This document shows, piece after piece, positions 1 through 22,246 of a DNA stretch of 23,627 nucleotides. The position numbers and the translations under genes are program-made. Below the pieces are notes generated by a model. The model saw nothing but the letters and a program-made list of their open reading frames with translations. It was not told the origin of the DNA and did no database searches. Each line of letters starts with the position of its first letter. The stretch's first letter is position 1. The stretch comes from Victivallales bacterium. GTDB lineage: Bacteria; Verrucomicrobiota; Lentisphaeria; Oligosphaerales; Oligosphaeraceae. The stretch covers positions 1 through 23,627 of the forward strand of contig JAFRLP010000369.1 of assembly GCA_017431185.1 (NCBI GenBank), read 5' to 3'.

Positions 1-1162
1 CCAGCGGATTGGCGCCATCGCCACCTTCACCAGAGGCATTGAACCCAGGAGTGCCAGGTCCGCCAGAGGTTGCAGCGGCGGTTGGACGCGCACCGTTCAG
101 TTTCTCCAATTGGAGGACAAAGTTCACGCCTTCGTTTTCAGGGTCAAATTCCACGCTGTAACGGCGCAGTTTGTCAAACACCTCCGTCAGCGGCTGGTCG
201 CGGAATTTGACTTCAGGAATGATGATGGACTCCATCTTGTTCTGGAGACCTGTGGTCATCTCGGTCTTCTTGATTGCCTTGACGGCAGACTCATTGCCGG
301 GGCCGGCGAGAAGCGGAGTGACGGGTTCCGCCCAAGTCCAGCGAACCTCCGCCATGCGCTCATCCAGGATGGCCTTGAATTTCTCGTCCGCCGCACGGTG
401 CAACTGCTGGGAGATACGGGCCAGATAACGGGTGGCGACGGCATTGTAGGCGTCCCGGAGCAGCACCTGCTCAAACGTGTCACGGGCATCGGCATAGCGT
501 CCATTCTGAAGATAGACGCGGCCACGTTCCAGCATAATGGCGATTTCCATATCGTCATCCGCCTTGTCCTGAATGATGGTATCGACCTTGGTCTGCTCGT
601 GGAATTCAATCTCCTTCTTCTCATGCTGGACATCGTTGATTCGATTGTCGATATGGTCACGCTCCTCCTTGGAAAGCGTGTCAAATGATTTGGCCTTGCT
701 CAAATGCTCCAGGGCATCGTCTATTTTCTCGGCGGTGGTGAGTTCCTTCGCCTCACGGACCAGTTGCTCGCTCCACATCTTATGCAGTTCAATCTGCTTC
801 TTGTTGATCACCTCGCGCAGTTCCTGCGCCTTCTCGGACAAGGGTCCCGTCGCATCCGCACGTTTGAGAGCCTCCTCCAATTTAGCCTGGGCATCCTCGA
901 ATCGGTTGCTGGCATTCTTCAAGTCCTTCAACTCCATCAGACCGCAGCCTTCACCGAAAAGGGCCTGTGCGACTTCAAAGGCCTCCTGGCGGAGCACGTC
1001 TTCCCGTTCACTGATTTCGGTCGCCTTAATCATTGGATCGGCTTTGCCCTCCACGGCCTTTTGAGCCTTGGCCTCAAAACCGGTCAAAAATGAGAAAGCG
1101 GCGCAAAGCACTGCGCAACTGCCCAAGTGCGTCCACTTGGAGCAAAGTTCTTTTTCTCTCAT
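1..1162 (-). CDS. Amuc_1098-like type IV pilus-type secretin (PilQ-like), N-terminal part only
   Basis: The reading frame is open from an ATG at 1162 to the left window edge, giving 387 residues with no stop; the C-terminal secretin pore domain must lie outside. A good Shine-Dalgarno AGGAGA lies at 1169-1174. Residues 1-34 are a signal peptide ending in AKAQ. Residues about 50-190 are helical, charged and TPR/coiled-coil-like, and 205-250 look like a TPR unit (LERGRVYLQNGRYADARDTF). Residues 310-350 (SIIIPEVKFRDQPLTEVFDKL) have the pattern of a secretin N0/STN domain. A Gly/Ala-rich stretch starts near 362. A TPR region, an STN-like domain and then a secretin is the layout of the Amuc_1098 family. 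The gene is last in a five-gene block in Akkermansia order, but a 175-bp gap and a possible promoter precede it. The outer-membrane channel role is inferred, since the pore domain is not visible. Ordinary PilQ is the alternative. Confidence 0.8.
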   Translation of the reverse strand, partial: MREKELCSKWTHLGSCAVLCAAFSFLTGFEAKAQKAVEGKADPMIKATEISEREDVLRQEAFEVAQALFGEGCGLMELKDLKNASNRFEDAQAKLEEALKRADATGPLSEKAQELREVINKKQIELHKMWSEQLVREAKELTTAEKIDDALEHLSKAKSFDTLSKEERDHIDNRINDVQHEKKEIEFHEQTKVDTIIQDKADDDMEIAIMLERGRVYLQNGRYADARDTFEQVLLRDAYNAVATRYLARISQQLHRAADEKFKAILDERMAEVRWTWAEPVTPLLAGPGNESAVKAIKKTEMTTGLQNKMESIIIPEVKFRDQPLTEVFDKLRRYSVEFDPENEGVNFVLQLEKLNGARPTAAATSGGPGTPGFNASGEGGDGANPL

Positions 1163-1260
1163 TGTCTTTCTCCTGCCAAGGCAAGGAAATCTCCTTCCTT
1201 GAGCGTTTGAGGATTCTATCATCTATCTCAATTTCTTAATTTTGCAAAGCGTGTCGGGAT

Positions 1261-1288
1261 AATTTACACTGGAATATGAGAAAAGCAA
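1261..1288 (-). promoter_or_regulatory. Possible sigma70-type promoter for the secretin gene
   Basis: On the minus strand TTGCTT (1288-1283) is followed after 16 bp by TAAATT (1266-1261). Both spacing and hexamers resemble the TTGCAT-16-TATATT promoters elsewhere in this window. It would give a leader of about 90 nt before the ATG at 1162. The rest of the 1163-1337 gap is AT-rich, with a T-rich stretch just after the stop of the upstream gene but no clear terminator hairpin. The call rests on pattern only. Confidence 0.35.
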
Positions 1289-1337
1289 ACCCACAAACCA
1301 AGATAAACATCCCTTTCCGCCGAAAAAAACGAAAAAT

Positions 1338-2600
1338 CTAGCGGCGCGGACGTCCGGGCGGCGGCATTCCGCGGCGCCTCGGGCCGCCAGGGCCAAGGCC
1401 AGAGCCGTCCATCATCTCATCGGGATTTCCGCCGAAGCCCTCATCCTTTCGGGCCTCGAACATGAAATCCTTTTCACGGTTGAAAGGCGGAACATCAATG
1501 ACCGCCGTCTCCTTTCCATCCTGAAGAAGGGCCAATTTCGCGACATTGGTTTTCTCACTGACCTCCTTCAGGCGGTACACTTCAAAGTACTGCGGGGCAT
1601 TCGGCAGTTTTGAGATGCGGAAATCCTCTCCCACGGTACGCCGCTGGACATATCTGGCGGTAAGCACCCGTGCATCCGCCGCACGACGGCTGGCCAGGTA
1701 GAGAATCGCCACAGTGAGATTTTTGTTCTGGACATCCTGTCCCTGGACAAAATGATAGACATCCTTGGCATTCTTTTCGGGGTGCGCGTCAATCCAGGCA
1801 TTGGCGCCGTCAAACCCCGCCCTGGTGATGGTGTATCCACCGACAGTGGAACCCACAGTTGTGGCGGTACGGCGCATTTTGCGCATTTTCGGATTCCAGC
1901 ACATCACGGCGATGTCCCATTTGCTCTGGTCATCCGTGCGATTCCGGTCTATCTCAATGAGTTTGAAGGGGAGGTTTTGACGGAAGACCCGCAGTGTGCG
2001 GCAAAGCATGGCCAGGGGCGGGAAGGACTCGGCGTCACCCGGATCGGTTCCAGCCTGGATTTCCTCAATGTTGAGGAATCCATCGTTGTCATTGTCCTCA
2101 CGGGCATCGTTGGGGTTGCGGAAATTCAGGAACGAATATTTCTGTTCCACAAGGTCGGGAATGCCATCCTCGTCGGTGTCCTGCTCTTCACCGGTGTTTT
2201 TGGCCAGTTCAGGCTGTTCGGCCTTGCAGAACGGGCATTTGTCAGCGCGCAAATCAATCAGTTTGCGGCACTCCTGATTGGTGCAGACAATAAATTGAGC
2301 GGAGGAAAGCAGAGACGCCTTGTCATCCTTCACCTGTTTGGGGTCTTGCGGCAATTCCGGGCCGAGAACGTTCACCACCTTGCGCGTGTCGTTCAGGTAA
2401 ATCTCCAGCCCCAGGCCATCTGACTTGACGGGCTGGACAAGTTCACCTCCCTTGACATCATTGGACGCCTTCTGAACGCCGGCCTGCAAGTCACTCCTGG
2501 TTTTATTGAATGAGGCCGCCACCATCAGCACGCCCAGACAAAGGCAGAGCAGACAAATGGTCAAAACCAGCTTCTCGTAATGTTTATACAGAAAATCCAA
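1338..2600 (-). CDS. Amuc_1099-like pilus-like system membrane protein with zinc ribbon and Ca-binding loops
   Basis: This is a 420-residue protein with a TTG start, supported by a strong AAGGAGG six bases upstream; no better ATG exists. Residues 11-30 form a single membrane span after a short cytoplasmic N-terminus, so the rest is probably periplasmic. Cys106, Cys111, Cys122 and Cys125 form a zinc-ribbon or rubredoxin-knuckle pattern (CTNQEC and CPFC). Two Asp-rich loops follow, DTDEDGIPD (141-149) and DNDNDGFLNIEE (169-180), typical of thrombospondin type 3 or dockerin-like calcium binding. The C-terminus (about 388-420) is Gly, Pro and Arg rich. It starts 11 nt after the Amuc_1100-like gene and precedes the secretin gene, the position of Amuc_1099 in Akkermansia. 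It may link the inner-membrane part to the secretin (PilP-like), but that is inference; family function is not established. Confidence 0.72.
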   Translation of the reverse strand: MDFLYKHYEKLVLTICLLCLCLGVLMVAASFNKTRSDLQAGVQKASNDVKGGELVQPVKSDGLGLEIYLNDTRKVVNVLGPELPQDPKQVKDDKASLLSSAQFIVCTNQECRKLIDLRADKCPFCKAEQPELAKNTGEEQDTDEDGIPDLVEQKYSFLNFRNPNDAREDNDNDGFLNIEEIQAGTDPGDAESFPPLAMLCRTLRVFRQNLPFKLIEIDRNRTDDQSKWDIAVMCWNPKMRKMRRTATTVGSTVGGYTITRAGFDGANAWIDAHPEKNAKDVYHFVQGQDVQNKNLTVAILYLASRRAADARVLTARYVQRRTVGEDFRISKLPNAPQYFEVYRLKEVSEKTNVAKLALLQDGKETAVIDVPPFNREKDFMFEARKDEGFGGNPDEMMDGSGLGPGGPRRRGMPPPGRPRR

Positions 2601-2611
2601 AATGAACCTCC

Positions 2612-3721
2612 TTATTCTTGAGCTGATTTGTCCGTTGCCGCCTTGGCCTGCTCCTCCGCCTGCTTCATCTTCTCCGTCTTCGCGAATTCGATGAAGTCAA
2701 AACGCAGTGACCAGGTGGTGAGTTTCGGTTCAAACAGCAGGAAATCCTGACGTTTGGGTGGGACTTCCACCAGGAAATCCTCCTCTTTCTTCTCCTGGGT
2801 CTGCACTTCGGACGCCGCAGCCGCGGGATTCCTGGCCAATTCCGCCAGTTCGCGACGACGCGCCTCGCGCGCCTCGCGACGGCTCTTGACGGCAGCGCCC
2901 TCCCCCCTGCGTCCCATGCCATTGTCGGAAAGAGACTCAAGGCGGCGCGAAGTCCCGCCGCCAGGCCCCATGCCAGGGTCATCACGCCTTGAGTCCCCCC
3001 CTCCCCGAAGCGCGGGATTAAACTCATCCTCGGCCTTGATGGAGATGTCACGCAGGACAAAGAAGCAGCTGGGGTCCTGCGTCATCAGGTTCGTGAGTTT
3101 CTGGGCGTTTTCAGGGGTGGCGGTTATCGTCAGTTCAATCGGCGTGAAAACGTAGAAGCTGTCCTCCTTGGGCAAGAGACCGTATGGGCGTTTCAAATCG
3201 TCCAACGAATAGACGTCGGCGTCAATGACATGCTGGACAACCTTCTTGATGATGGCCAGGTTATGGAAAATGGGCCCCAAATCGTCCGCACTTGGCAAAA
3301 CAGTGGAGGAAGCCACAGCGTCAAAGGTGAAGGAGGCGACTTTGGCGTCACAGTCAATGTCCTTGTTCTGCAGATTGCTGCGCAGTTCGGCAATCTCCTC
3401 CCGCAAGATGCGCAGGGCGTCAACAGCGGTGGGCGGGACGGTGTATTTCAGTTCAAACCGCTTGGCCAGGGTAGAGCGCAGTTCCTCCAGTTCATTCTCG
3501 GATTTCTGGACATTGGCTTCGGCGACCTCCTTGTTTTCCTCAGTCAACTGCATCCTTTTCTTCTTGACGTTGGAAAGATAGTCCTGCGCCTTCGTCACCT
3601 CGGCCATGCGTTCCTTCAGCGTGTCAACGGCGCCAACAAGCATCATCAGCAGTACAGCGGAGCCAACCACTATGCCGATGACAATGAAGAGGAACCCCCA
3701 GTTCTTTTTCAGGAAATCCAT
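2612..3721 (-). CDS. Amuc_1100-like pilus-like protein (PilO-position membrane protein)
   Basis: This 369-residue protein has one membrane span at about 10-31 (MDFLKKNWGF then a hydrophobic stretch), a coiled coil at about 35-115, and an alpha/beta region at 120-230 (including FYVFTPIELTITATPENAQKLTNL split over the 190-212 area) that fits a PilO-like ferredoxin fold. Residues about 236-310 are a Gly/Arg-rich then Arg/Ala/Glu-rich low-complexity insert. A final beta-rich segment (LTTWSLRFDFIEF) and a charged tail follow. A short TM, coiled coil and two ferredoxin-like regions is the Amuc_1100 family layout, and the gene sits between the PilM-like and Amuc_1099-like genes as in Akkermansia. 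The Akkermansia protein is known as a cell-envelope protein that stimulates host TLR2; nothing in this sequence shows that the homologue does so. The ATG has no obvious Shine-Dalgarno sequence. Confidence 0.72.
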   Translation of the reverse strand: MDFLKKNWGFLFIVIGIVVGSAVLLMMLVGAVDTLKERMAEVTKAQDYLSNVKKKRMQLTEENKEVAEANVQKSENELEELRSTLAKRFELKYTVPPTAVDALRILREEIAELRSNLQNKDIDCDAKVASFTFDAVASSTVLPSADDLGPIFHNLAIIKKVVQHVIDADVYSLDDLKRPYGLLPKEDSFYVFTPIELTITATPENAQKLTNLMTQDPSCFFVLRDISIKAEDEFNPALRGGGDSRRDDPGMGPGGGTSRRLESLSDNGMGRRGEGAAVKSRREAREARRRELAELARNPAAAASEVQTQEKKEEDFLVEVPPKRQDFLLFEPKLTTWSLRFDFIEFAKTEKMKQAEEQAKAATDKSAQE

Positions 3722-3793
3722 TTTGGGCGATGTATTATCAGGTTAAAAGGTATATCGTGACATTCGTGACAACGCAAACACGGAGAGCCAGGT

Positions 3794-5758
3794 TCACTTC
3801 TTGGCGGTGGAGGCGCCGACCTTGAAATACTCCAGGTTGAAGTCGAACTTCACCTGCATCCGGAAAACAGCGTAGTTGCTGAACTTCTCGCTGGCCTTGT
3901 AGAAGGTGATGGCAGTGAGTTTTTCCTCCGAAGAGAACAGAGGACTGGCGCGCAAGGCGGTGAGGAAGGCCTGTTCCGGCGTCGTGGCATTGGCCTCGCG
4001 AATCTTCTGGAGCATCAGTTCATTGGGGGAGAGCTGCGGCGCACCCTCTTTCTGCGGGGGCATCTGCACCTCAAAGGGGAAGGCGATGACGGGACCGAGA
4101 TGCACGGGGATGGCGCTCTCGGTGGGCTGAACGGCGCACCCCTCCAATTCGAGACCGGCGATTTTCACCATGGAGCCGCTGGCAGTCGCCTCGGACGCAC
4201 CGCCTCCAAAGCCGCCGCCGAACATCCTGTCATCCGCGCTGAAGGCAAACATCCCGTCCTCGTCGGCGCCCATGGGGATATCCTTGACCTCGGCCATCTT
4301 CTGGGTCTCGAAAGGCTTGACTTCATTCTCGATGATTTTGAAGGAGGTCAGCCAGAGGCCATCCGGCTTAATGCGGTAGATCTCATTGAGGATGGAGGGC
4401 CACACGGCTGACTGATGGAGGAACGAGGTCACCGTCTTGGCCTGATCGCGCGCCGCATTGGTCTTCGCATTGGCGCTCTCAATGGCGTCCACGTATGGTT
4501 TTGCCTTCCGCACAAAATGCTCGTCGATGTAATGATAGTTCCGGTCATAGCTGTCCGTCCTGGTGACGACCCCGAACCAGACCAATCCCAGCAGCGCCAT
4601 GATGCTCACGCCCGCCAAAGCCAGCCAGGGCTTTTTGCGGTCGAAATCCTGCTGCCTGCGAATGGTGGCGGGAATCAGGGAAAGTTCCACCGGGCACTGG
4701 TCTGCATACCGCAGGCCAATCCCGATGCACTCGCTGAACATGTGACCGACCTCCATCAGGCGCTGACGGTCAACCGAGGGCTGCAGCTGCACACACTGGA
4801 AGGGGTTGAAATACTCCACGGGAATGCCCAGTTTCTCATTGAAGAAGGTATCCGTATAGGTGAAGATGGAGGAACCGCCCGTAATGTACAGTTTGGATGG
4901 CTTGGAGCCTTTCTGCTGGGCGCGATAGACGTTGATGGTACGGGTAATCTCACCATGCAGACGCGCCATGACATTCCGGACGATCTTGGAGACGTTGGCG
5001 GCCGTCTCCGAGTCCGGCTCGGCGTATGCCCCGCCCAGCGCGACAAAGCCATGCTGACGCTTGAGTTCCTCGGCCTCGGGCAGGCTGATGCCGAATTCCT
5101 TGGCAATCTGCTGGGTGATGGAGTAGCCCGCAATGGGAATGGTACGGGCATAGAACCGGTCGCCCTCGCAGAAGACCAGGTTCGTGACCCGTCCGCCAAT
5201 GTTCAGGATGATGTCGCATTCCTCATTCCCCAGTCCGCAGGCGCGCGCCGCATTATAGCAGGCGGCAGGGGCGACGTCAATCAGAATCGGGATGCCGCCC
5301 ACCTGCGAAATGGCGGCCGTGAACTGCTCCACAATGTCATTTTTGATGACCACCGACATGATGTCCGCCGTATTCTCGGTGGAGGACGCAATGAGCTGGT
5401 AGTCCATGATGACCTCATTGGCGGCGAAGGGGATATTCTGCGTTGCGTCAAACTCCGCCATCTGCCGGATCTGCTTCTTGTCATAATTGCCGGTCGGCAG
5501 TCGGGTGAAGCGCATCAGCGAGGATTGGCCGGACATGCAGACCATCGCCCGCCTGGCGGTGAAGCCGCCCTCCGCCAGCATCTGGCGAAGCAGTCCCGCG
5601 ACCACGCCCATGCGGGTTCCCTCGGAGAGTTCCTCCTCGTATTCGCGGTGAGCAAACCGATTCAGGAATATTTCACCCTTGGAACCATACGCAAACTCAC
5701 AGAGTTTGATGGAGGTTGCACCGATGTCGATGGCGAGTACAAGTTCTTCTTTGGCCAT
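3794..5758 (-). CDS. pilM: PilM-PilN fusion protein (Amuc_1101-like actin-fold ATPase with periplasmic domain)
   Basis: This protein has 654 residues, about twice the length of an ordinary PilM. Residues 1-365 are an actin/FtsA-fold domain: LAIDIGATSIKL (8-19) is the first phosphate loop, DVAPAACYNA (161-170) the hinge region, NIGGRVTNLVF (186-196) the second phosphate loop, PEAEELKRQHG (227-237) the helical PilM signature, and LYITGGSSI (290-298) the adenosine motif. A membrane span follows at about 377-398. Residues 405-654 are periplasmic and PilN-like: a helix at 405-445, then WPSILNEIYRIKPDGLWLTS (453-472). A Gly-rich loop (about 498-528, with FGGGFGGG) interrupts this part. In type IV pili PilM binds the PilN N-terminal tail in the cytoplasm; here one chain carries both. 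The start has AGGA six bases upstream. It is second in the operon, 75 nt after the Amuc_1102-like gene. Confidence 0.88.
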   Translation of the reverse strand: MAKEELVLAIDIGATSIKLCEFAYGSKGEIFLNRFAHREYEEELSEGTRMGVVAGLLRQMLAEGGFTARRAMVCMSGQSSLMRFTRLPTGNYDKKQIRQMAEFDATQNIPFAANEVIMDYQLIASSTENTADIMSVVIKNDIVEQFTAAISQVGGIPILIDVAPAACYNAARACGLGNEECDIILNIGGRVTNLVFCEGDRFYARTIPIAGYSITQQIAKEFGISLPEAEELKRQHGFVALGGAYAEPDSETAANVSKIVRNVMARLHGEITRTINVYRAQQKGSKPSKLYITGGSSIFTYTDTFFNEKLGIPVEYFNPFQCVQLQPSVDRQRLMEVGHMFSECIGIGLRYADQCPVELSLIPATIRRQQDFDRKKPWLALAGVSIMALLGLVWFGVVTRTDSYDRNYHYIDEHFVRKAKPYVDAIESANAKTNAARDQAKTVTSFLHQSAVWPSILNEIYRIKPDGLWLTSFKIIENEVKPFETQKMAEVKDIPMGADEDGMFAFSADDRMFGGGFGGGASEATASGSMVKIAGLELEGCAVQPTESAIPVHLGPVIAFPFEVQMPPQKEGAPQLSPNELMLQKIREANATTPEQAFLTALRASPLFSSEEKLTAITFYKASEKFSNYAVFRMQVKFDFNLEYFKVGASTAKK

Positions 5759-5833
5759 TATGTTCCTCGCAGGGAAAATGAATGCAGATGGTATCAGGAG
5801 TGTTTAAGAATCCCCCAGTCTCAGACCATACGC

Positions 5834-6430
5834 CTAATCCTCGATGGTGATTTTCTCGTCCTCGTAGTAGTCGCAGTCCACAGGGGCGAACGGGGTGAGG
5901 CTTTTCGGCAGCAAGGCGTTCTCCATCTTTCTCATCTGGTCAGTCAGTTTCTGCCAGCCAGAGGGAATGCCATTGGCGCGCTTGTCCTGGCTGGCCACAC
6001 GCTGTCCCTTGACGTATGCTTCCACGTACACGGAAATCTTGGAGGCGTCGCACTTGCCGGACTTCATGTACCGTTCAAAGAACCGGGGGCGGATATAGAC
6101 GCTGGCGTAGTGGTTTCCCTGCTTGACGTACTCGTAGGTGACATTGCGGAACAGCCCCAGGGGGCGCTTCGAGTTGTCCGCGCTGACCAGCACCAGCCAG
6201 CGGAGTTCCACCTCGTCCAGCCAATCCTCGGATGTGGCGAACTTCACCTCCACACGACACCATTTGCTCTTGGAGCCCTTGCCGCCCTTGTCGGCCGCCC
6301 CGCCATAGTCAGGGGTCTTCACGTCGTGGATCTTGAAGTCGTCGATTTTGACGACGGAGCGTTTCTGGGCAAAGGCGGACTCCGCCCAGCAGAGCAGGCA
6401 GGCCAGCACGGCGATATAGGTGATTTTCAT
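5834..6430 (-). CDS. Amuc_1102-like secreted protein of the pilus-like locus
   Basis: This 198-residue protein has a clear signal peptide (MKITYIAVLACLLCWAESAFA, cleavage near 21-22) and no other membrane span, so it is periplasmic or surface exposed. The mature part is beta-rich with regular aromatic and charged strands (WCRVEVKFAT, ELRWLVLVSA, YASVYIRPRFFERY, ISVYVEAYVKGQRV) and two Cys residues after the signal peptide that could pair. The acidic tail ends in EDEKITIED. It is the first gene after the promoter at 6496-6524. Assignment rests mainly on size, signal peptide, fold character and gene order next to the PilM fusion. The alternative is an unrelated secreted protein at the same position. 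Biochemical function is unknown. Confidence 0.65.
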   Translation of the reverse strand: MKITYIAVLACLLCWAESAFAQKRSVVKIDDFKIHDVKTPDYGGAADKGGKGSKSKWCRVEVKFATSEDWLDEVELRWLVLVSADNSKRPLGLFRNVTYEYVKQGNHYASVYIRPRFFERYMKSGKCDASKISVYVEAYVKGQRVASQDKRANGIPSGWQKLTDQMRKMENALLPKSLTPFAPVDCDYYEDEKITIED

Positions 6431-8229: not shown

Positions 8230-8763
8230 CTACGGTTGGCCGTCGCGAAGACGAATGGTGATTCTCTTGCCGCGCCTGGCGTCGGGTTCGGGGTCGCTGA
8301 CCGTCTCCACCATCGGGTCATTCTCCAGCGTCAAGTGGATGATGCGCCGTTCAGCAGGGGGAAGGGGGCCGATGACCTTGGCGGTCTTCAGCATCCGCAC
8401 CTCCCGTGCCAGGTCCTTGGCCATGGCCTGGAGGCGCTCGATTTCCACCTGGGGCAATTTGCCATGCCTCAGTCCGGGCTCGCTGACGGGAGTCTCGACC
8501 TGGTAGCCATCCACGTCCAGGGAAATCCATGGGGGATTTCCGCCTTCGGCGGCCTGGTGCTTCAGCACCCTGTTCAGGAGCAGTTCCATCGCCTCCAGAT
8601 TCTGTCCCTTGCGCCCGATGACATGGGCGGCGTCGTCAGCCGCCACCAGGAGTTTGTTCATCGACTCGTCCTCGGGGATGGTGACATTGGCCTCCGTGCC
8701 CAGAAGACTCATCATTTTCCGCAAAGTCTCCCTGGCCTGTTCTCTGATGTTAGTCTCCGTCAT
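8230..8763 (-). CDS. khpB: KhpB/Jag RNA-binding protein (KH and R3H domains)
   Basis: This protein has 177 residues. A KH domain with the loop HVIGRKGQNLEAMELLLNRV (about 47-66) is followed by an R3H domain at about 105-172, with the PAERRIIHLTL segment carrying Arg140 and His143 of the R-x3-H motif. The family (Jag, EloR, SpoIIIJ-associated protein) binds single-stranded nucleic acid and in Firmicutes affects cell elongation; the role in PVC bacteria is not established. The separate Jag_N domain found in many Firmicutes is absent. The start overlaps the yidC stop by 4 bp (ATGA), so translation is coupled, as in the common yidC-jag pair. Confidence 0.93.
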   Translation of the reverse strand: MTETNIREQARETLRKMMSLLGTEANVTIPEDESMNKLLVAADDAAHVIGRKGQNLEAMELLLNRVLKHQAAEGGNPPWISLDVDGYQVETPVSEPGLRHGKLPQVEIERLQAMAKDLAREVRMLKTAKVIGPLPPAERRIIHLTLENDPMVETVSDPEPDARRGKRITIRLRDGQP

Positions 8764-10634
8764 TGCCGTAATCCGTTCGTCGTGGTTTTCGCAGTGGTCT
8801 GAAGGGCCGCGTCCATCGGCACCATCTTGTTGGTGATGTAAGTCTGGAGGATGCCCAGCAGATAACTCACCGTCAGGTAAAGGGTAAGCGCGGAGGGCAT
8901 TCCATAGAAGAGGAACATGAAGAAGATGGTCATGAATGACATCATCTTCGACGAATTGGGGTCAGGGTTGGGGGTCATTTTCTGTTGCACGAACATCGTC
9001 GCCGCCATCAGGATGGCAAAGGGGCGAATCGGCAGCGACTCGGGGGAAAACGACAGGGTGTCGGGCATCGACAGGTCGTATGCCCACAGGAAACTGGCAT
9101 GGCGCAGCTCAATGGCGTTGCGGAACGTGTTGAACAGCGCGAAGAACACCGGTATCTGGAGGAGCATCGGAAGGCAGCCGCCCAACTGGCTGACGTTGTT
9201 CTCCTTGAACAGTTCCCGCTGCTTGCGGTACAAGGTCTGCGGGTCGTCCTTGTACTTGGCCTTCAGTTCATCCAACTGCGGCTTCAGTGCCTGCATCCGC
9301 CGCATGGAGACCGTGCTTTTATGGGAGAGCGGCCAGAAAAGGATACGCACCAGGACCGTCAACAGAATCACCCCCATGCCAAAGCCGATTGAGGCGGGGA
9401 AGAATCCGCGGATCCACAGCATCCCACCCAGCAAAGCCCGGCTAATCCATGCCATCCAGACGGGACGCCACATGAAGAACCAGTCAATCCCCATGACCGA
9501 GGCGATGCCGTTGCCGATGGCGTACAGCCTTTCGCATTTCTTGGGTCCTGCGTATGCCGTCATGCTCCATTCTCCCGTCGCACCAGCCGCCACATTGGCG
9601 GCAGGCAGAATCACCCGCAGGCAGTAGCGCCCCTCCGGCTCCGTGGCCACCCCCTCCTGATGGATGGATGGCACGGCGGCCGCCTCCGCCCCTGGGAAAC
9701 TGGCTCCTGGCTCGCTCATCCAAAGCCCCAGCAGGAAGTACTTGGAGTGGACAGCCGCCCAGTTGGCGGGCGTTGAGGCAAGTTTGGCGCGGTCCTGCCC
9801 GTCCATCTTGACCAGTTTCTTCATGGCGAGGTCCGTGGGCTTGGAACCCGCTCCGCGCCCCAGCGAGGCGCCGCCCGCGTTCTCCCCTCGGGAGGCCTTG
9901 CGGTCAGGCGTGATGGATGGCGGCATCGCGCCCGCCGACACCATCCAATCCTGCAAAACCAATGGCTGTGCCGTCAGATTGCGGACTTTCACGGAATAAA
10001 GGATTTCATACGAATTGGCAGTGGAGGCGTCCCAGGTCTCGGTCACCTCGGCCGCTCCGTCCGCCAGAGTGCGCACCAGCCGCGCCACTTTGGGATTGGC
10101 CTCATCCACGGTCACTCTGCCGCCGGTCAGTCCGGGAGCCACCAGGCGCAGGAACGGATAGTCATGGTTTCCCAGAGAGACCCTGGGGGACGACGTGCCG
10201 TCCTTGGCGTTCTTGCTGACCAGATAGTCCTGAAGAACCACGCTGTCGCACCCGCCCCATTCGGGATTCAGCGCAATGACCGCCTCCCCCGTGCGCTCCA
10301 AAGAGACAGGGGCAAGCGCCGACGGCGGGAATGGCGTACTCACCGAGGAGACGGAGGCAATCTCCTTCCCCGCATTCGGCTGGGCCGAAGAGGCCGCCGC
10401 GTCCCCCGTGCCATCCGGCGCGGACGACGGGGAAACGGCGTCCGTCGCCCCCACCTCCGCCGTCTGCGAAGTGGCGGCGGGGACGTTTGCCGCAGGCTGC
10501 GACACATCGACGCCAGGCGCCGGTTGAGGCGGCGGAGCCATTTTCCTCATGACAAAAGGCATGCCGAGCAACATCAGAAGACAGGCGGTCACGCCAAAAA
10601 TGGTAACTGGATCGTATTTGCTCTTGTCAGCCAT
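8760..10634 (-). CDS. yidC: Membrane protein insertase YidC (Gram-negative type)
   Basis: YidC inserts and folds inner-membrane proteins, alone or with SecYEG. At 624 residues it has the long Gram-negative form. The first membrane span is at about 11-30, then an Ala/Pro-rich linker (33-110) and a large beta-rich periplasmic domain (about 110-365). The conserved C-terminal core follows (about 410-610): SIGFGMGVILLTVLVRILFW (415-434) carries the groove Arg430, then the cytoplasmic helical loop with MRRMQALKPQLDELKAKYKDD (444-464, read as two segments), SQLGGCLPMLLQIPVFFALF (482-501) and the last spans to about 600. The ATG at 10634 has no Shine-Dalgarno sequence. The 61-bp gap to yidD holds no further feature. 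The gene is in the usual rpmH-rnpA-yidD-yidC-khpB order. Confidence 0.97.
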   Translation of the reverse strand: MADKSKYDPVTIFGVTACLLMLLGMPFVMRKMAPPPQPAPGVDVSQPAANVPAATSQTAEVGATDAVSPSSAPDGTGDAAASSAQPNAGKEIASVSSVSTPFPPSALAPVSLERTGEAVIALNPEWGGCDSVVLQDYLVSKNAKDGTSSPRVSLGNHDYPFLRLVAPGLTGGRVTVDEANPKVARLVRTLADGAAEVTETWDASTANSYEILYSVKVRNLTAQPLVLQDWMVSAGAMPPSITPDRKASRGENAGGASLGRGAGSKPTDLAMKKLVKMDGQDRAKLASTPANWAAVHSKYFLLGLWMSEPGASFPGAEAAAVPSIHQEGVATEPEGRYCLRVILPAANVAAGATGEWSMTAYAGPKKCERLYAIGNGIASVMGIDWFFMWRPVWMAWISRALLGGMLWIRGFFPASIGFGMGVILLTVLVRILFWPLSHKSTVSMRRMQALKPQLDELKAKYKDDPQTLYRKQRELFKENNVSQLGGCLPMLLQIPVFFALFNTFRNAIELRHASFLWAYDLSMPDTLSFSPESLPIRPFAILMAATMFVQQKMTPNPDPNSSKMMSFMTIFFMFLFYGMPSALTLYLTVSYLLGILQTYITNKMVPMDAALQTTAKTTTNGLRQ

Positions 10635-10695
10635 TGTTCAATTCAAATTGTATTTTCGTATAGATGAAACTTTTCACAAGAGGCGAAGAGAACAT

Positions 10696-10959
10696 CTAGC
10701 ACCCTTGCCTCTTTGGAGGCGGAACAGGATCGTAGATGTCGCCATGGTAGAATGGCTGGCAACGCAGCAGCCGCCAGACGGTGAGAAGGGTACCTTGCCA
10801 GAAGCCATGGGTCAGATACGCCTGCTTCGCATACTCCGAACAGGTCGGCACAAAACGGCAGCAACGAGGTTTCCAAGGAGATACCACCATCTGGTAGAAG
10901 CGAATGAGACAGGCGCAGAACCGCGCGGGCCAATCAGCCACCATGGATAACATCCTCAT
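10696..10959 (-). CDS. yidD: Membrane protein insertion efficiency factor YidD
   Basis: This is an 87-residue protein of the usual YidD length. It carries the family signature: FYQMVVSPWKPRCCRFVPTC (21-40), then SEYAKQAYLTHGFWQG (41-56), and RLLRCQPFYHGDIYDPVP (63-80), with the conserved Cys, Pro and Tyr positions. YidD is a small amphipathic, inner-membrane-associated protein that helps YidC/Sec-dependent insertion. The ATG overlaps the rnpA stop by 4 bp (ATGA), giving translational coupling. Confidence 0.95.
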   Translation of the reverse strand: MRMLSMVADWPARFCACLIRFYQMVVSPWKPRCCRFVPTCSEYAKQAYLTHGFWQGTLLTVWRLLRCQPFYHGDIYDPVPPPKRQGC

Positions 10960-11345
10960 CTCTCAGCCTCCCGTTGCCATCGTACCCCGCAACGCTCCAG
11001 ATTGCCGCGGGCGTCCCCCAGCACATCCGCCATTTTGGCCGTCTTTATGTGCTTTCTGGGGATGAACAACACCCAGGAAGGCGGCAACTCAGGCTGAAGA
11101 ACCGCGTAAACCTCCCGAAACAGACGCCTGGCGCGGTTGCGCTCCACCGCCAATGGCGAAAACTTTCTGGAGATGCAAAATGCCGCCCTCCTGCTTTGAT
11201 CAGGGGACGGCATTAGAATGTTGACCACACAGTATCGCCCCGCGCTGGAAACCCCACTGTCACGCACTAGAGAGAACTGGCTTTGGCAGTGAAGCCTGGC
11301 CGCACGTCCAAAAGATTTCTGGCTGGCCTGTCCGTCCTGGGTCAT
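10956..11345 (-). CDS. rnpA: Ribonuclease P protein component
   Basis: RnpA is the protein cofactor of RNase P, which with the RNA subunit removes the 5' leader from pre-tRNAs. The 129-residue length is normal. The signature AVERNRARRLFREVY (about 66-80) is the conserved RNR motif that contacts the RNA, followed by WVLFIPRKHIKTA, the typical central strand. The N-terminal SFGRAARLHCQSQFSLVRDSG matches the family pattern for binding the leader. It starts 22 bp after rpmH and its stop overlaps yidD. No strong Shine-Dalgarno sequence is visible, so expression may depend on coupling to rpmH. Confidence 0.95.
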   Translation of the reverse strand: MTQDGQASQKSFGRAARLHCQSQFSLVRDSGVSSAGRYCVVNILMPSPDQSRRAAFCISRKFSPLAVERNRARRLFREVYAVLQPELPPSWVLFIPRKHIKTAKMADVLGDARGNLERCGVRWQREAER

Positions 11346-11367
11346 CTATGACCAGTGGAACAAGGAA

Positions 11368-11502
11368 TTAAAGGGCGAGGCGCTTGCGTCCAACCCGACG
11401 GCGATTGGCCAGGACGCGACGCCCGCCGTGAGTCTGCATCCGGGCACGGAAGCCCAGGCTGCGCTTGCGCGAAAGGGTATGTGGCTGGAAAGTACGTTTC
11501 AT
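11368..11502 (-). CDS. rpmH: 50S ribosomal protein L34
   Basis: This 44-residue, Arg/Lys-rich protein was read directly from the minus strand. It starts [20 protein letters not shown], continues [20 protein letters not shown] and ends RLAL. This is the full L34 family pattern (MKRTfQP, RKR..GFRaRM.T..GR.vl..RR.kGR..L). It is a structural protein of the large ribosomal subunit and the first gene of the rpmH-rnpA-yidD-yidC-khpB cluster. The ATG at 11502 is followed by a complete frame to a TAA at 11370-11368. A dnaA gene, which often lies upstream in other bacteria, is not found; a solute-binding protein gene lies there instead. Confidence 0.97.
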
Positions 11503-14592: not shown

Positions 14593-15468
14593 TTATGGCT
14601 GCGAATACCTCGGTTTCCAGTTTTCCTCCTGGAACCGGAAATCAACACCCTCATTCGCCTGTCGGGCATAGAGGATTTTCAGATAGCCAGTCGCCCGGCT
14701 AAGTTGCGGAACACCGTTCTCGGGCACATAATAACGGCGCTGCCGCTGTTTGGCCTCACCGTCAATGACCGAATAGACCGTGTAGCAATAGAGGCGCGGA
14801 CGCACCTGGACAAGGACATGGATGGCGCTGCTGCCGTCCGCATCCAATTGTGGTTTGCTGCCATGGATGTACGGGCCGACGCGGAAGGTGCCATAGACAT
14901 TCTCCGCGTCCTCGATGCGCAGGCAGTAGAGTTCGCCGTGCCCGTCCGTAAAACGCATGAGGCTGGCGGTGATGCTGCGGATGAGGTCATTGTCCCGGGG
15001 GGTCGGCAACCCGACGGTTTTGCTGGTCAGAATGGTGCCCTCACGCACCTCCAGGGTCACGGAATTGGAGACAAATGCCTGTGGCAGGCGCTTGTGCTCA
15101 ATGTATGCGGTGACAGTGTAGGTGTCGTCCCGCTGCAAATCATAAAGAGTGTTCAGGGTGAGATTCAGCTCCTTGGAGTCGCCAGGGGCAAAGACCAGCC
15201 CCCCCATGGGATTCGCCCTGGGGTCGATTTGGGAGATCAGCCGCCCCCCCGTGCCGGTGATTTTGAACACCAGCCGCCCCTGCGACAGGTCATCCGCGCT
15301 GAACAGCAGTGTGTTGCCGGAGTAGTTTCGCAGCACAAGTTTCAAGTGGATTGGCTCATAGCGCAGAAAACAGTCGTGTTCGGCGGAAAGTTGCATCCCG
15401 ATTTGCGCCCATCCCGACAGGGCGCACAGGATCAGGATTCCCAGCGGCAGCAAAAGGTTGTTCTTCAT
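14593..15468 (-). CDS. Secreted beta-rich protein of unknown function
   Basis: This 291-residue protein starts at the ATG that overlaps the glycosyltransferase stop (ATGA), with GGAGAA seven bases upstream; a longer frame upstream lies inside the glycosyltransferase gene and is not used. A signal peptide covers residues 1-22 (MKNNLLLPLGILILCALSGWAQ). Residues about 25-145 look like an Ig-type beta-sandwich: FLRYEPIHLKLVLRNYSGNT, GGLVFAPGDSKELNLTLNTLYDL and DTYTVTAYIEHKRLP are the kind of strands seen in A2M-like and BsuPI-like extracellular domains. The remainder is less clear, with several Tyr-rich strands near the C-terminus. No catalytic motif was recognised. It sits in an operon with SppA and a GT9 enzyme, so an envelope role is likely but unproven. 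Confidence 0.8.
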   Translation of the reverse strand: MKNNLLLPLGILILCALSGWAQIGMQLSAEHDCFLRYEPIHLKLVLRNYSGNTLLFSADDLSQGRLVFKITGTGGRLISQIDPRANPMGGLVFAPGDSKELNLTLNTLYDLQRDDTYTVTAYIEHKRLPQAFVSNSVTLEVREGTILTSKTVGLPTPRDNDLIRSITASLMRFTDGHGELYCLRIEDAENVYGTFRVGPYIHGSKPQLDADGSSAIHVLVQVRPRLYCYTVYSVIDGEAKQRQRRYYVPENGVPQLSRATGYLKILYARQANEGVDFRFQEENWKPRYSQP

Positions 15469-16496
15469 GGGCAGTTCTCCGTTGTCAAGTGATTGGCCAT
15501 TTGCCTGGCAAGGGCCGCGGCGTCCATTCCCTCGCTGCAATCCGCCTGACGTGGGCAGTGCCGCTCAAAGCAGGGGGACTGCGGACAATGCGACACCATC
15601 AGGAGATGCTGTGAACCATAGGGGCCGGTCAGCACGGGGTCCGTCGAGCCAAAAAGCGCAAAGCAACGCACTCCCAGGGCGGCTGCCAGGTGCATCGGGC
15701 CGCTATCGACGGTCAGCATGGCGTTGGAACGGCGCAGCAGGGCGGCCAGCGCCTCCAAGGTGGTCCGCCCCGCCAGATTCGCTGGTTTTGCGCGCGAGGC
15801 CAGGGAGGCCAACTGTTCGCCAGCCGTCCTGTCCCCCGCCGTCCCCAACAGCCAGCAACGCACCTTTGGCAATTGGTCAGCCAGGGCGTTGAGCACGTCC
15901 GCCAAAAAGCCCAGGGGCCAGTTTTTGCTGGGCCAGCGTGAGGAGAAGCAGACCGCCACCAAGGGGCCGTCCCCGGGCAACTCGGCCAGAAGCCGCTGCG
16001 CCTCCCGCTCGGCCTCGGCGGGGATGAGCAACCCCGTGTCCGGCGGTTCCAGCGGGGCGCCCACGTCAAACGCCCGGCGAACCAGAGCCAGATTCTTGTC
16101 GGCGGCGTGGCAGTGCATCTCCGCCAATTTCACCAGCCGATTATAGAACCAGACAGCCCCCTCGCGGGCATGGGCAAAGCCATAACGCAGCGGAGCGCCA
16201 CTCGCACGGGCAATGAAGCCACTGCGGAACAGTCCCTGAAAGTCGAGCGCCACGTCGTACTTCTCCGAACGCAAATCTCGCAGAAAACGCCACAGCACCA
16301 CGGGATTGGCGGCACGGCGACGCGGAAACGGCACAATGCGGTCTATGCCAGGACACAGGCGCACCACGCCAGCCAACTCCTCGTTGACCACCCAACTGAT
16401 TGTCGCTCCCTTCAATGCGGCCCGCAGCCATGCCACAGCGGGAAACGTGTGAAGCACGTCTCCAATGCTGCTTGGCTTGACAATCAGGACATGCAC
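15465..16496 (-). CDS. Glycosyltransferase family 9 (heptosyltransferase-like)
   Basis: This 343-residue protein has a GTG start backed by AGGAGG eight bases upstream; a nearby ATG is out of frame. It has the two-lobed GT-B form of LPS heptosyltransferases. HVLIVKPSSIGDVLHTFPAV (2-21) is the N-terminal acceptor-side signature, FSSRWPSKNWPLGFLADV lies in the linker to the C-lobe, and LTVDSGPMHLAAALGVRCFALFGSTDP (split near 250-280) is the donor ADP-sugar site with the conserved Asp and His. DVALDFQGLFRSG also fits the family. The closest named types are WaaC and WaaF, which add heptose to LPS inner core; the exact sugar cannot be told from sequence. Several Cys residues near the C-terminus (HCPQSPCFERHCPRQADC) are common in one subgroup. 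It acts on the cytoplasmic face of the inner membrane. Confidence 0.9.
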   Translation of the reverse strand: MHVLIVKPSSIGDVLHTFPAVAWLRAALKGATISWVVNEELAGVVRLCPGIDRIVPFPRRRAANPVVLWRFLRDLRSEKYDVALDFQGLFRSGFIARASGAPLRYGFAHAREGAVWFYNRLVKLAEMHCHAADKNLALVRRAFDVGAPLEPPDTGLLIPAEAEREAQRLLAELPGDGPLVAVCFSSRWPSKNWPLGFLADVLNALADQLPKVRCWLLGTAGDRTAGEQLASLASRAKPANLAGRTTLEALAALLRRSNAMLTVDSGPMHLAAALGVRCFALFGSTDPVLTGPYGSQHLLMVSHCPQSPCFERHCPRQADCSEGMDAAALARQMANHLTTENCP

Positions 16497-18842: not shown

Positions 18843-20444
18843 TCAGTTTTTTAGGATAATCCAATGCCCATATCGTTTTCCGCCTTCACGTCTTATCTTC
18901 CCCAAAAGTTTCAATTGCCGGAAGATTCGTTCCGCTGTGCGCGTCGTGATGTGCAGTTTTGTTGCCAATTCCTTTGCCGTTGCTTGAGGATTCTCTTGAA
19001 TAAGCCTCAGGATAACGGTCTTGTTTTTTACCAAACCGACATCGACGTGCTCCAAACCGACATCGACGTGCTCCAAACCGACATCGACGTGCTCCAAACC
19101 GACATCGACGTGCTCCAAACCGACATCGCCGTGCTCCAAACCGACATTGCCGTGCTCCAAACCGACATCGCCAGTCACAACACCGACATCGCCAGCATTT
19201 ACTGGGTCGGTTACACCGACATTTTTGGATTCTACACCGACATTCTCGTCAGTAGCCAATGGGTTGAAATTCAAATTGCGATAAATCACGAACTTGACGA
19301 AGAAGTCGCCGCCGCTGATTTCCATTTCCTTTAGCCCCACCTCTTTCAGCAGCGAATTGACTTTTGGGATGCCGCTTCCCCAGGCCTCGATAAGTCCCAT
19401 ATAGGCGAATGCCTTGGCAATGGCCTCGTTGCGGATTTTGGAGAAGCCTGTCTTCATGTTCTCAATCGTCTGGTCGATGGGAAGTTTCCCTGGCGTCATG
19501 ACCTCTAGGCGGTCGTCATAAAGCGCGACTTGTATGTTTCCTGTCGCCAGATAACTACGATGAACGACGGAGTCAACCAAAATCTCACGGATGGCGTCGG
19601 GTGGAATCTCGTAAACATCCTGCCTGTAAAGCCCTCTGATTCTCGCTCCGAGCCTGATATTGCGCAAGACAAACTGAAAGGCCTCCTCCTGCTGCTCCTG
19701 TATGGGGCCCTCATACTCGCGTTTGTCTATGAAGTTTCCCTTCGTCGTGCCCTTGAAGACGGCGCATTGCGTCATCGTGGGAAGCAGGTAATGCCCAGTC
19801 AATAGCGCAAAGGCGTTGGTCGGGACAATCTCGTTGTCCTTTCTCGTCAGGATTCCCCAGGAGAGCAGTTGATTGCGGGTGACATCGCGCATCCGCTGTT
19901 TTCCCTCACCCAACTGACGATAGCGCATGGCAGTTTTCTGAAGCGAGTGGCAGAGAGCGCTGATGTCGTCTTCGGAAGCCTCCAGGCCAAGGCATACGGT
20001 CTTGTCGAAGAAGCGATGCGCCCCCTCGAACATCAACTCCTTGACCATGTACTCTTCCGCCTTCCGAGTCTCCGCCGCCACGCGGATGAACGTACCGTCC
20101 ATCATTCCCAGGGACTTCACATAGTAGGGACGCTGCCGCCCGATGTCAATTTCCACTACAATCAGGCTCTTCCCCCCCAACGTCAAAGGATAGACATTGG
20201 GCATGATGGCAGGTTCGCAGTTGTCGGAGATGATGTTCGTGATGGTGTCCATGTCCTGAAACAACGTCTCGTCGTTCATCCCGATGACGGCGTGGTCCTC
20301 GTTTCTGATGCCAAAGATAAAGCAACCTCCCTGACAGTTGGCGAAGGCCACCGCCGTCTTTAGAAACGTGACATCCTTCTGCGGCAGTTCCAGTTTAAAC
20401 TCCACATTCTTACCTTCAGTCTTGATGATGTCTCCAATATCCAT
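18843..20444 (-). CDS. AlbA_2 / HATPase_c_4 / winged-helix putative regulator (RecG-like 'ATP-binding protein')
   Basis: This 533-residue protein starts at the ATG at 20444 with AGGAGG just upstream (spacing 3); a longer frame reaching 20630 is less likely. Domains in order: AlbA_2 (Schlafen-like, formerly AAA_4) at about 8-125, with EFKLELP and NCQGGCFIFGIRNEDHAVIG; a middle region at 135-270; a GHKL-type HATPase at about 275-390, with PPDAIREILVDSVVHRSY, DDRLEVMTPGKLP and EAWGSGIPKV; a repeat linker of the form xDVGLEH (about 400-474); and a winged helix-turn-helix at 475-533 (KELATKLHITTRTAERIFRQ). This layout is common in bacterial proteins annotated as transcriptional regulators or RecG-like, but no helicase motifs are present. 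Function is unproven. It is divergent from the TRAP operon, with back-to-back promoters. Confidence 0.88.
   Translation of the reverse strand: MDIGDIIKTEGKNVEFKLELPQKDVTFLKTAVAFANCQGGCFIFGIRNEDHAVIGMNDETLFQDMDTITNIISDNCEPAIMPNVYPLTLGGKSLIVVEIDIGRQRPYYVKSLGMMDGTFIRVAAETRKAEEYMVKELMFEGAHRFFDKTVCLGLEASEDDISALCHSLQKTAMRYRQLGEGKQRMRDVTRNQLLSWGILTRKDNEIVPTNAFALLTGHYLLPTMTQCAVFKGTTKGNFIDKREYEGPIQEQQEEAFQFVLRNIRLGARIRGLYRQDVYEIPPDAIREILVDSVVHRSYLATGNIQVALYDDRLEVMTPGKLPIDQTIENMKTGFSKIRNEAIAKAFAYMGLIEAWGSGIPKVNSLLKEVGLKEMEISGGDFFVKFVIYRNLNFNPLATDENVGVESKNVGVTDPVNAGDVGVVTGDVGLEHGNVGLEHGDVGLEHVDVGLEHVDVGLEHVDVGLEHVDVGLVKNKTVILRLIQENPQATAKELATKLHITTRTAERIFRQLKLLGKIRREGGKRYGHWIILKN
19031..19198. repeat. 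21-bp tandem repeat coding for a heptapeptide repeat
   Basis: Eight adjacent 21-bp units lie inside the AlbA_2 gene. Units 1-4 (19031-19114) are identical and unit 7 and unit 8 are the most worn. On the coding strand they read as heptads of the type VDVGLEH or GDVGLEH, between the HATPase and the winged helix. The unit is a multiple of three, so copy number can change without a frameshift. The identical units suggest recent expansion by slippage or unequal recombination. Confidence 0.95.
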
Positions 20445-20477
20445 AGTCCTCCTATACACTATACGGATGATGTACAA

Positions 20478-20505
20478 AATATACCACTTGCCTGAGGATA
20501 TGCAA
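20478..20505 (-). promoter_or_regulatory. Probable promoter of the AlbA_2 gene
   Basis: TTGCAT (20505-20500), 16 bp, TATATT (20483-20478) on the minus strand, about 34 bp before the start codon. It is identical in hexamers and spacing to the divergent promoter of the TRAP operon at 20552-20579. The two share the 219-bp gap 20445-20663, which otherwise holds an A-run (20531-20539) and no supportable gene. Confidence 0.55.
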
Positions 20506-20551
20506 GCAAATGCCGTGAAATCACACACGCAAAAAAAAACGCTTTCCCGAT

Positions 20552-20579
20552 TTGCATCCCCGAAAAACAGTGTTATATT
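20552..20579 (+). promoter_or_regulatory. Probable promoter of the TRAP transporter operon
   Basis: TTGCAT (20552-20557), 16 bp, TATATT (20574-20579), about 85 bp upstream of the dctP start. It has the same form as the divergent AlbA_2 promoter, whose start region is only about 50 bp away, so a regulator bound between them could act on both. Confidence 0.55.
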
Positions 20580-20663
20580 AAAGCGATGTTTCGATACAGA
20601 GAAACATTTTTTCAGTGCAAAGTGTCCCAATCGTCCTCACACAAAAATAAAGGAGAAAGCAAA

Positions 20664-21671
20664 ATGAGAGCGTTTATGGTAGTAATGTTCAGCGCGGTGC
20701 TGGCCGTGCTGCTTGCCAGTTGCGGCAAGGAGAGTTCAGAGGTCATTGTGTTGAGTTACGCGAATTTTCCGCCGCCAGAGACCTTCCCCTGCGTGCAGAT
20801 GGAACGGTGGAAGGAGGAGGTGGAGAAACGCAGTGGCGGTCGCATCAGAATCAAGACCTATCCAGGCGGAACCTTGCTTGGCGCCAAGGAGATATATGAT
20901 GGCGTAGTCTCAGGAACGGCCGCCATCGGCAATTTCGCGATGAGTTACCAGCCAGGCCGATTCCCCGTCTCGGAGGCCGTTGACCTGCCGCATTTCTTCC
21001 CCGATTCCAAAACCGCAAGCCGTCGTCTCGCGGAGATGCTCAAGCAGGAGAATCCAGCGGAGTTCTCCGAGGTCAAGATACTGACCGCCTTCACCTGCCC
21101 GCCTGGAGTAATCATGAGCGCCAAACCCGTCGAATCGGTGACCGACCTGCAACGTTCGCCTCTGCGCAGTTCCGGCACCAGTCTGGAGGCGCTGAAACTG
21201 CTGGGGGCGGCTCCCGTCGCCATGCCGCAGTCCGATGTGCCCGATGCTCTGCACAAGGGTGTCATCAGCGGCATCGTCTCCTCTGGCGAGGTCATGAAGG
21301 ACATGAACTACGCCGCCTACTGCAAGAATGTCGTCGAGGCCAGGCTGCCTGTCATCAGTTTTGCCGTCGTGATGAACAGGAAACGCTGGGATGCACTCCC
21401 CGACGACCTCAAGAAAATCCTGGATGACCTTTATCTGGAGCAGGCCGACTGGACTGGAGCCTACGTTGACCAGCACGTGCAGGATGCCTTCCAGTGGTCC
21501 AAGGACACCCATCAGGTCCAAATCAGGCAAATCACCGACACCGAATTGGCCGACATCCGCACACGCCTTGCCCCGATCATGGAATCCTATGTCAAGCGCG
21601 TCGCCGCCAAAGGAATTGACGGGCAGAAACTCATCCAGTTCCTCCAATCTGACCAGGAGACCGCGAAATGA
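20664..21671 (+). CDS. dctP: TRAP transporter substrate-binding lipoprotein, DctP family
   Basis: This 335-residue protein starts at the ATG at 20664 with AAGGAG eight bases upstream; the frame runs further up without a good site. Residues 1-20 are a lipoprotein signal peptide with lipobox LLASC (Cys20), so it is anchored to a membrane instead of free in the periplasm. The DctP fold is visible: VIVLSYANFPPPETFPCVQMERWKEEVEKRSGGRIRIKTYPGGTLLG (split) at the N-terminus, IYDGVVSGTAAIGNF, and AAPVAMPQSDVPDALHKGVISG in the ligand-binding part. The family binds organic acids, often through an Arg; the usual LKGLKIR element here reads LQRSPLRSSG, so the ligand cannot be predicted. It is first of three coupled genes. 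Confidence 0.93.
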   Translation: MRAFMVVMFSAVLAVLLASCGKESSEVIVLSYANFPPPETFPCVQMERWKEEVEKRSGGRIRIKTYPGGTLLGAKEIYDGVVSGTAAIGNFAMSYQPGRFPVSEAVDLPHFFPDSKTASRRLAEMLKQENPAEFSEVKILTAFTCPPGVIMSAKPVESVTDLQRSPLRSSGTSLEALKLLGAAPVAMPQSDVPDALHKGVISGIVSSGEVMKDMNYAAYCKNVVEARLPVISFAVVMNRKRWDALPDDLKKILDDLYLEQADWTGAYVDQHVQDAFQWSKDTHQVQIRQITDTELADIRTRLAPIMESYVKRVAAKGIDGQKLIQFLQSDQETAK

Positions 21672-22246
21672 GGCGGCTGGTCAGACTGGAACGCTGGCTC
21701 TGCCTGACGGGCTTGGCTGTCGCGGGAACCTTGCTGTCCGTTCTTGTTCTGCTCTCTGGAATGAATGTGCTGGGACGGCTCGGCGGACATCCCATCAGCG
21801 GGAGTTACGAACTTTCAGGCTTTCTTGGAGCACTCATCGCAGCGCTCGCCCTGGCCGACACCCAGCGCAAACGCGGTCACGTGGAACTGGACATGTTCAC
21901 CCGCCATTACCCTCCTCTGGCCAAACGGCTGGTCGGTTCATTCAACATGTTCTGTGGCTTCCTCCTCCTGCTGGTTCTGGCCATACAGCAAATCAACCGC
22001 GCCAGACGCCTGCTGGCGGCGGGCGAACTCTCGGAAACGCTGCGGCTCTCCTACCCATGGCTCATCTTTGTCTGCGCAGGCGGACTTCTGCTGCTGGCAT
22101 GCGCCTATCTGACCGACTCCTGCTATCTACTGACTCGACGCGACCCCGACACCGAGGCTCTGACCAATGAGCATCGCAAAGGCGTGGTGACCGTCATCAA
22201 CGACGAAATCACCCTTCCCACGTCAAGGAAAGAACATGAACATTGA
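21668..22246 (+). CDS. dctQ: TRAP transporter small permease, DctQ family
   Basis: This 192-residue inner-membrane protein has four predicted spans, near 10-36, 46-66, 90-112 and 129-155. The DctQ pattern is present: LSGMNVLGRLGGHPISGSYEL (split) and DTQRKRGHVELDMF after the second span, which is the family motif (..R.G.HV.vD.l). The C-terminal tail beyond about 157 is hydrophilic and cytoplasmic. DctQ pairs with DctM to form the Na+-driven permease fed by DctP. The start overlaps the dctP stop by 4 bp and its end overlaps dctM by 11 bp. Confidence 0.93.
   Translation: MRRLVRLERWLCLTGLAVAGTLLSVLVLLSGMNVLGRLGGHPISGSYELSGFLGALIAALALADTQRKRGHVELDMFTRHYPPLAKRLVGSFNMFCGFLLLLVLAIQQINRARRLLAAGELSETLRLSYPWLIFVCAGGLLLLACAYLTDSCYLLTRRDPDTEALTNEHRKGVVTVINDEITLPTSRKEHEH

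Follow-up and report, generated by a model that had tools for sequence, protein, structure and literature searches.

We analyzed a window of 23,627 nucleotides of DNA from a Victivallales bacterium (contig JAFRLP010000369.1), in which five consecutive minus-strand genes resemble the pilus-like Amuc_1102 to Amuc_1098 cluster of Akkermansia. The set begins with an Amuc_1102-like gene (5834..6430, 198 aa) and continues with an Amuc_1101-like gene encoding a PilM-PilN fusion (3794..5758, 654 aa), an Amuc_1100-like gene in the PilO slot (2612..3721, 369 aa), an Amuc_1099-like gene in the PilP slot (1338..2600, 420 aa, TTG start), and only the N-terminal part of an Amuc_1098 (PilQ)-like gene (2..1162, in a frame that opens at 1222). 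A sequence-only reading of this DNA had proposed the same order, with PilM fused to PilN, a coiled-coil single-span protein and a second single-span protein, and had named the NCBIfam profiles as its check. Results showed that the frames and the architecture are as it described and that each protein matches the expected model (NF042424, NF045709, NF038287, NF042425, and NF042912, respectively), with E-values from 6.3e-121 to 9.6e-10. Because of these E-values and the shared order, a chance match of five genes is excluded. The Amuc_1102-like protein alone exceeds its curated cut-off, and the other four score below theirs, one of them (the Amuc_1098-like protein) coming from a truncated gene. 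As judged from sequence, the locus is a diverged gene-for-gene relative of the Akkermansia Amuc_1098-1102 cluster.

The Amuc_1102-like protein scored 65.9 bits against NF042424 (Amuc_1102_rel; E 3.4e-18, cut-off 55), and its residues 56-189 match the Amuc_1102 structure in PDB (7dsz, E 0.00099). A hydropathy scan placed a hydrophobic N-terminal segment at residues 3-21, and by eye this is a Sec-type signal peptide of the ordinary kind, ending near ...AFA/QK. We considered the protein as a type IV pilin and rejected this assignment, as the signal peptide is ordinary and no prepilin site was found either by eye or by a pattern scan. Because the signal peptide is ordinary, the secreted protein would be an accessory subunit and not a classical type IV pilin.

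The Amuc_1101-like protein gave the strongest match of the set (NF045709, 405.1 bits, E 6.3e-121), extending over residues 1-490 and thus across the PilM-PilN junction; as the equivalog cut-off is 650, the protein is, by sequence score, homologous to Amuc_1101 but not an equivalog. Its PilM actin-like domain spans about residues 1-352 (PF11104, 109.5 bits; TIGR01175 pilM, 125.7 bits, just below the cut-off of 133) and matches the PilM structures 3jc8 (E 2.7e-35), 2ych, and 5eou in PDB. Downstream lie a PilN-type N-terminal motif at about 357-377 (VELSLIPATIRRQQ...KKP), a single membrane span at 380-398, and a PilN-like part from about 456. We also looked at the relatives of this protein, taking the best 120 of 994, query included, and aligning 19 of those 120, again with the query, favouring diversity and entries that were named or on long contigs. 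All 19 of these carry the motif E-x-x-[LIV]-[LIV]-P with a span after it, as do 108 of the full list of 120; in the other 12 the combination was not found. We take this motif to be the PilM-binding motif of free PilN.

The Amuc_1100-like protein (NF038287, 53.7 bits, E 2.1e-14, equivalog cut-off 180) has a membrane span at residues 11-29, a long helix to about 88 and then a ferredoxin-like core, which carries a Gly/Arg-rich insert at about 231-331 that is of low confidence in the predicted model. The predicted model has the Amuc_1100 fold and is of PilO type: it is closest to the Amuc_1100 crystal structures, with 15-19% identity over the aligned part, and among the other matches PilO scores above chains of the type II secretion system (T2SS). 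Because identity is only 15-19%, the immune activity of Amuc_1100 is not transferable to this protein. Gly-rich inserts (at least 10 Gly per 40 residues) also occur in 106 of 119 Amuc_1101-like and 5 of 6 Amuc_1100-like relatives. As a hallmark of the whole locus such inserts were rejected, since only 15 of 65 Amuc_1099-like relatives reach the same level, as do 2 of 13 unrelated proteins of the window.

The Amuc_1099-like protein has a membrane span at residues 11-29 and C-terminal beta domains at about 200-370, and its AlphaFold model has a mean predicted local distance difference test score (pLDDT) of 80.7. Against NF042425 it scored 38.5 bits (E 9.6e-10), below the cut-off of 50, and the best stretch covers residues 158-199 only. 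Between the span and the beta domains lie four zinc-ribbon-like cysteines (Cys 106/111/122/125) and TSP3/EF-hand-like motifs of calcium type (about 141-180), the protein scoring 26.1 bits with PF18884 TSP3_bac (cut-off 25). We aligned it with 61 of 65 listed relatives, 22-94% identical to it, leaving out three short ones (P0151, P0154, and P0162) and P0189, whose coverage is at least that of the included P0193 and P0195. NF042425 matched all 62 aligned sequences at E up to 0.01, and among 10 relatives scanned singly its cut-off was exceeded by P0185, P0193, and P0195; P0193, in which the four cysteines are present, matches the model over positions 4-313 of 321.

Both motifs are nearly invariant in this set, which was collected by a word-based search that could favour sequences in which these motifs are shared. 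Invariant columns include Cys106, Cys111, Cys122, Asp141, Asp143, Asp169, Asp171, Asp173, Phe175, Asn177, and Glu180, and Cys125 is kept in 61 of 62 sequences. Scored without the alignment, the four-cysteine spacing pattern is present in 55 of the 62; in six of the seven off-pattern members the first pair is C-x2-C, which makes them resemble a classical C-x2-C/C-x2-C zinc ribbon, and the seventh (P0186) lacks the fourth cysteine. The pattern is also carried by three of the four relatives left out, P0162 lacking it along with, apparently, its N-terminus. At E up to 1, Pfam recognized the acidic part as TSP3_bac in 39/62 and as EF-hand in 34/62, while zinc-ribbon matches were weak and scattered. 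These residues suggest that the protein may bind zinc and calcium.

The last gene of the set was read as the TPR-bearing start of a PilQ-type protein, and this was borne out, as NF042912 (the Amuc_1098 model) aligns with residues 60-376 through its initial section, profile positions 18-308 of 805 (80.1 bits, E 1e-22, against a cut-off of 750 for what is here an incomplete gene); a secretin region would lie past the contig end. By eye, the likely start is the ATG at 1162, which has an AGGAGA ribosome site, and the protein begins with a signal peptide; the hydropathy scan found no segment above threshold in it. A TPR region follows at about 220-280 (Pfam TPR_2, 27.8 bits, cut-off 27), and the gene leaves the contig past this region and the start of the next one, ahead of any secretin domain.

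Considered together, the five genes, as homologues of Amuc_1098-1102 (MUL2 plus PilQ), probably encode the alignment and secretin components with which a type IV pilus-type machine spans the envelope. Sequence or model shows PilM joined to a PilN-like part in one inner-membrane protein, then an Amuc_1100-type protein of PilO fold, and last the beginning of a member of the Amuc_1098 (PilQ) family that bears TPRs. The fused PilM-PilN protein and the PilO-like protein may pair via their ferredoxin-like domains, and the single-span Amuc_1099-like protein, in the PilP/GspC position, could link the inner-membrane platform to the secretin, with bound zinc and calcium presumably holding it in shape. 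The sequence-only reading had seen no pilin, PilB, PilC, or PilT, and in agreement none of these, nor PilD, appeared in Pfam scans of the five proteins (E up to 1) and 20 further frames of the window (E up to 0.001). One strict prepilin pattern applied to all six frames of the window matched twice, and judged by eye neither match is plausible as a pilin. For a filament to be made, the motor ATPases, PilC, the prepilin peptidase, and pilins would have to be encoded elsewhere, and the earlier caution that the product of the locus is not established was justified.

Several results weigh against this assignment. The window shows neither a motor nor a pilin nor a secretin domain. The PilN part scores 18.3 bits with PF05137 (residues 456-480), which is sub-threshold, and a Pfam PilN match at E up to 1 was obtained in 5 of the 19 aligned proteins. 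The Amuc_1100-like model is of middling confidence (66.8), being built from 7 sequences, and the sequence-profile link of this protein to Amuc_1100 in PDB reaches only E 0.1. For the Amuc_1099-like model no good fold match was found, none of the 50 matches listed in each of two comparisons being named PilP or GspC, and no PilP or T2SSC family was found for the Amuc_1099-like set among the 25 of 75 families listed; a PilP-like role is suggested by gene position and single-span topology alone. When profiles were compared with individual Hof and Gsp proteins of E. coli K-12, the best probability was 31% (the PilN part versus HofN), and the positive control failed (PilM versus HofM, 0.5%), so that the comparison is powerless for HofP and GspC. 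Finally, although expression of the five genes as one operon is plausible, with gaps in the 1102-to-1098 direction of 75, 72, 11, and about 175 bases (this final figure assumes a start of the Amuc_1098-like protein at 1162), a single operon is unproved because a promoter-like site (3763-3734) lies just ahead of the Amuc_1100-like gene.

The closest known system is that of Akkermansia, with which the locus shares five families in identical order and, for the Amuc_1100-like protein, the closest fold. This protein differs in its low identity to the Amuc_1100 structures and in the Gly/Arg-rich insert, and four of the five proteins, one of them truncated, fall short of the curated cut-offs. The neighbours also differ, being guaB, khpB, and yidC here versus dephospho-CoA kinase, rho, and 3-dehydroquinate dehydratase there, as given in a figure legend (ISME J 2026). 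The type IVa PilMNOPQ systems of Thermus, Myxococcus, and Pseudomonas resemble the locus in the PilM domain, the PilN-type motif with its weak PilN match, the PilO fold and the gene order. The window departs from them in that PilM and PilN are fused, that the set is headed by an additional 1102-type gene, that the PilP slot is taken by a single-span protein for which no PilP match was found and which bears zinc-ribbon-like and calcium-type motifs, and that the PilQ-like protein has a TPR region of its own.

We also asked whether the machine might act as a T2SS, building a pseudopilus or exporting protein in place of a surface pilus. PilP is usually a lipoprotein. The PilM-PilN fusion has what we take to be the domain layout of GspL, and the single-span protein in the PilP slot presumably has the topology of GspC, so that the set recalls a GspL-GspM-GspC-GspD platform, and T2SS chains are indeed among the fold matches of the Amuc_1100-like protein. 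However, the cytoplasmic domain is a PilM by sequence, with no GspL model among its NCBIfam and Pfam matches, PilO outscores the T2SS chains, and the Pfam scans of the window showed neither a pseudopilin nor a GspE or GspF family; we therefore regard this explanation as unlikely. Somewhat better placed, with chances still short of even, is a MUL2-like complex for polysaccharide attachment or uptake, with or without a filament, which would give the pilus-type machine its biological purpose. Passages of PMC13174399 propose that a syntenic locus of Akkermansiaceae attaches to fucose-rich glycans and liken its 1102 component to an archaeal pilin. However, the basis of that published function is another phylum and a genetic study, the Pfam scans of our contig contained no polysaccharide-degrading family, and the neighbours are guaB and housekeeping genes. 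A reading of the set as decayed, or as a remnant without function, for which the incomplete left gene might speak, is very improbable: the truncation of that gene is an assembly edge, the window apparently being the whole contig, all four complete frames are uninterrupted, and the proteins retain both the conserved PilM positions and those of metal type.

Returning to the pilus-type machine, within the superphylum the locus could tentatively stand for a separate class of type IV filament machine, with a GspL-like PilM-PilN chain, a TPR-bearing secretin and a metal-bound periplasmic connector (zinc ribbon plus calcium) in the PilP slot, a proposal that we hold to be rather doubtful at this stage. 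If it were true, assembly or opening of the secretin might depend on calcium or on redox state. We consider two points most original: an Amuc_1100-like protein from Lentisphaerota matches at the level of the PilO fold, and the Amuc_1099-like protein has zinc-ribbon-like and calcium-type motifs that are nearly invariant and offer a handle for probing the function of this uncharacterised component. The PilO-type fold argues that Amuc_1100-type proteins may be structural parts of the machine base, which bears on how their reported surface signal is read. Moreover, the Akkermansia locus, whose influence on host metabolism and immunity is under study, appears to be present in diverged form in Lentisphaerota, pointing to an envelope machine that is old within the superphylum and not to a gut-specific invention.

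We also considered the relatives of the locus. Among the 120 listed Amuc_1101-like proteins, query included, 18 are named by organism, and by our count by eye 17 of these belong to Lentisphaerota (Lentisphaeria, Lentisphaerae, Victivallales, and Oligosphaeraceae) and one to Kiritimatiellaeota; the closest among the matches listed are 94% and 73% identical. Judged by these protein relatives, the window most likely comes from a Lentisphaerota metagenome. Contig sizes recur between the lists, 9 of the 65 listed Amuc_1099-like relatives sharing theirs with the 120 listed Amuc_1101-like proteins and 2 of 7 listed Amuc_1100-like proteins with the Amuc_1099-like ones, which suggests that the genes travel together. 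The sequence-only reading had stressed the interest of a version outside Akkermansia. This interest is weaker than it stated, since such versions are published and one Victivallales relative (P0128) is already named "Amuc_1100 family pilus-like protein [Victivallales bacterium]". Excerpts of PMC4960237 name Amuc_1098 as PilQ, with homologues 25-40% identical in V. spinosum, Haloferula, and Lentisphaera araneosa; those of PMC5332112 describe the cluster and the TLR2 activity of Amuc_1100; those of PMC6828834 report a conserved gene order in Akkermansia, A. glycaniphila being without an Amuc_1100 homologue; and those of PMC13174399 treat versions outside Akkermansia and a locus of shared synteny in Akkermansiaceae of aquatic and gut origin. 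Lentisphaerota are not mentioned in the available text of PMC12418764. In the open literature searched we found no description of the whole locus in Lentisphaerota.

Further promoter-like sites lie ahead of the Amuc_1102-like gene (6524-6496 and 6584-6557), 7 having been found in the scanned stretch versus 2.6 expected, and no terminator-like site was found on its minus strand. Inside the PilM-PilN gene there is a strong sigma-70-like match on the minus strand (5280-5252, 11/12, with TG before the second hexamer), which may be due to chance.

The neighbourhood includes guaB (IMPDH), an SBP5-type binding protein, an S49 peptidase, a glycosyltransferase of family 9, a calcineurin-like phosphoesterase, and a DUF711 protein. 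A minus-strand row at 8230-11502 holds rpmH (11368-11502), rnpA, yidD (10696-10959), yidC, and khpB, with rpmH and yidD assigned by eye; such clusters often lie close to the chromosome origin. A minus-strand frame (14593-15540) that separates the S49 peptidase gene from the glycosyltransferase gene has no Pfam match and, by eye, a likely signal peptide. A Schlafen AlbA_2 protein with a RecG-C-terminal-type domain is encoded at 18843-20630, and between its two domains about seven near-identical 21-base repeats (19031-19193) specify a DVGLEHV-type peptide repeat. The plus strand at 20586-23558 carries a TRAP transporter set, DctP-DctQ-DctM.
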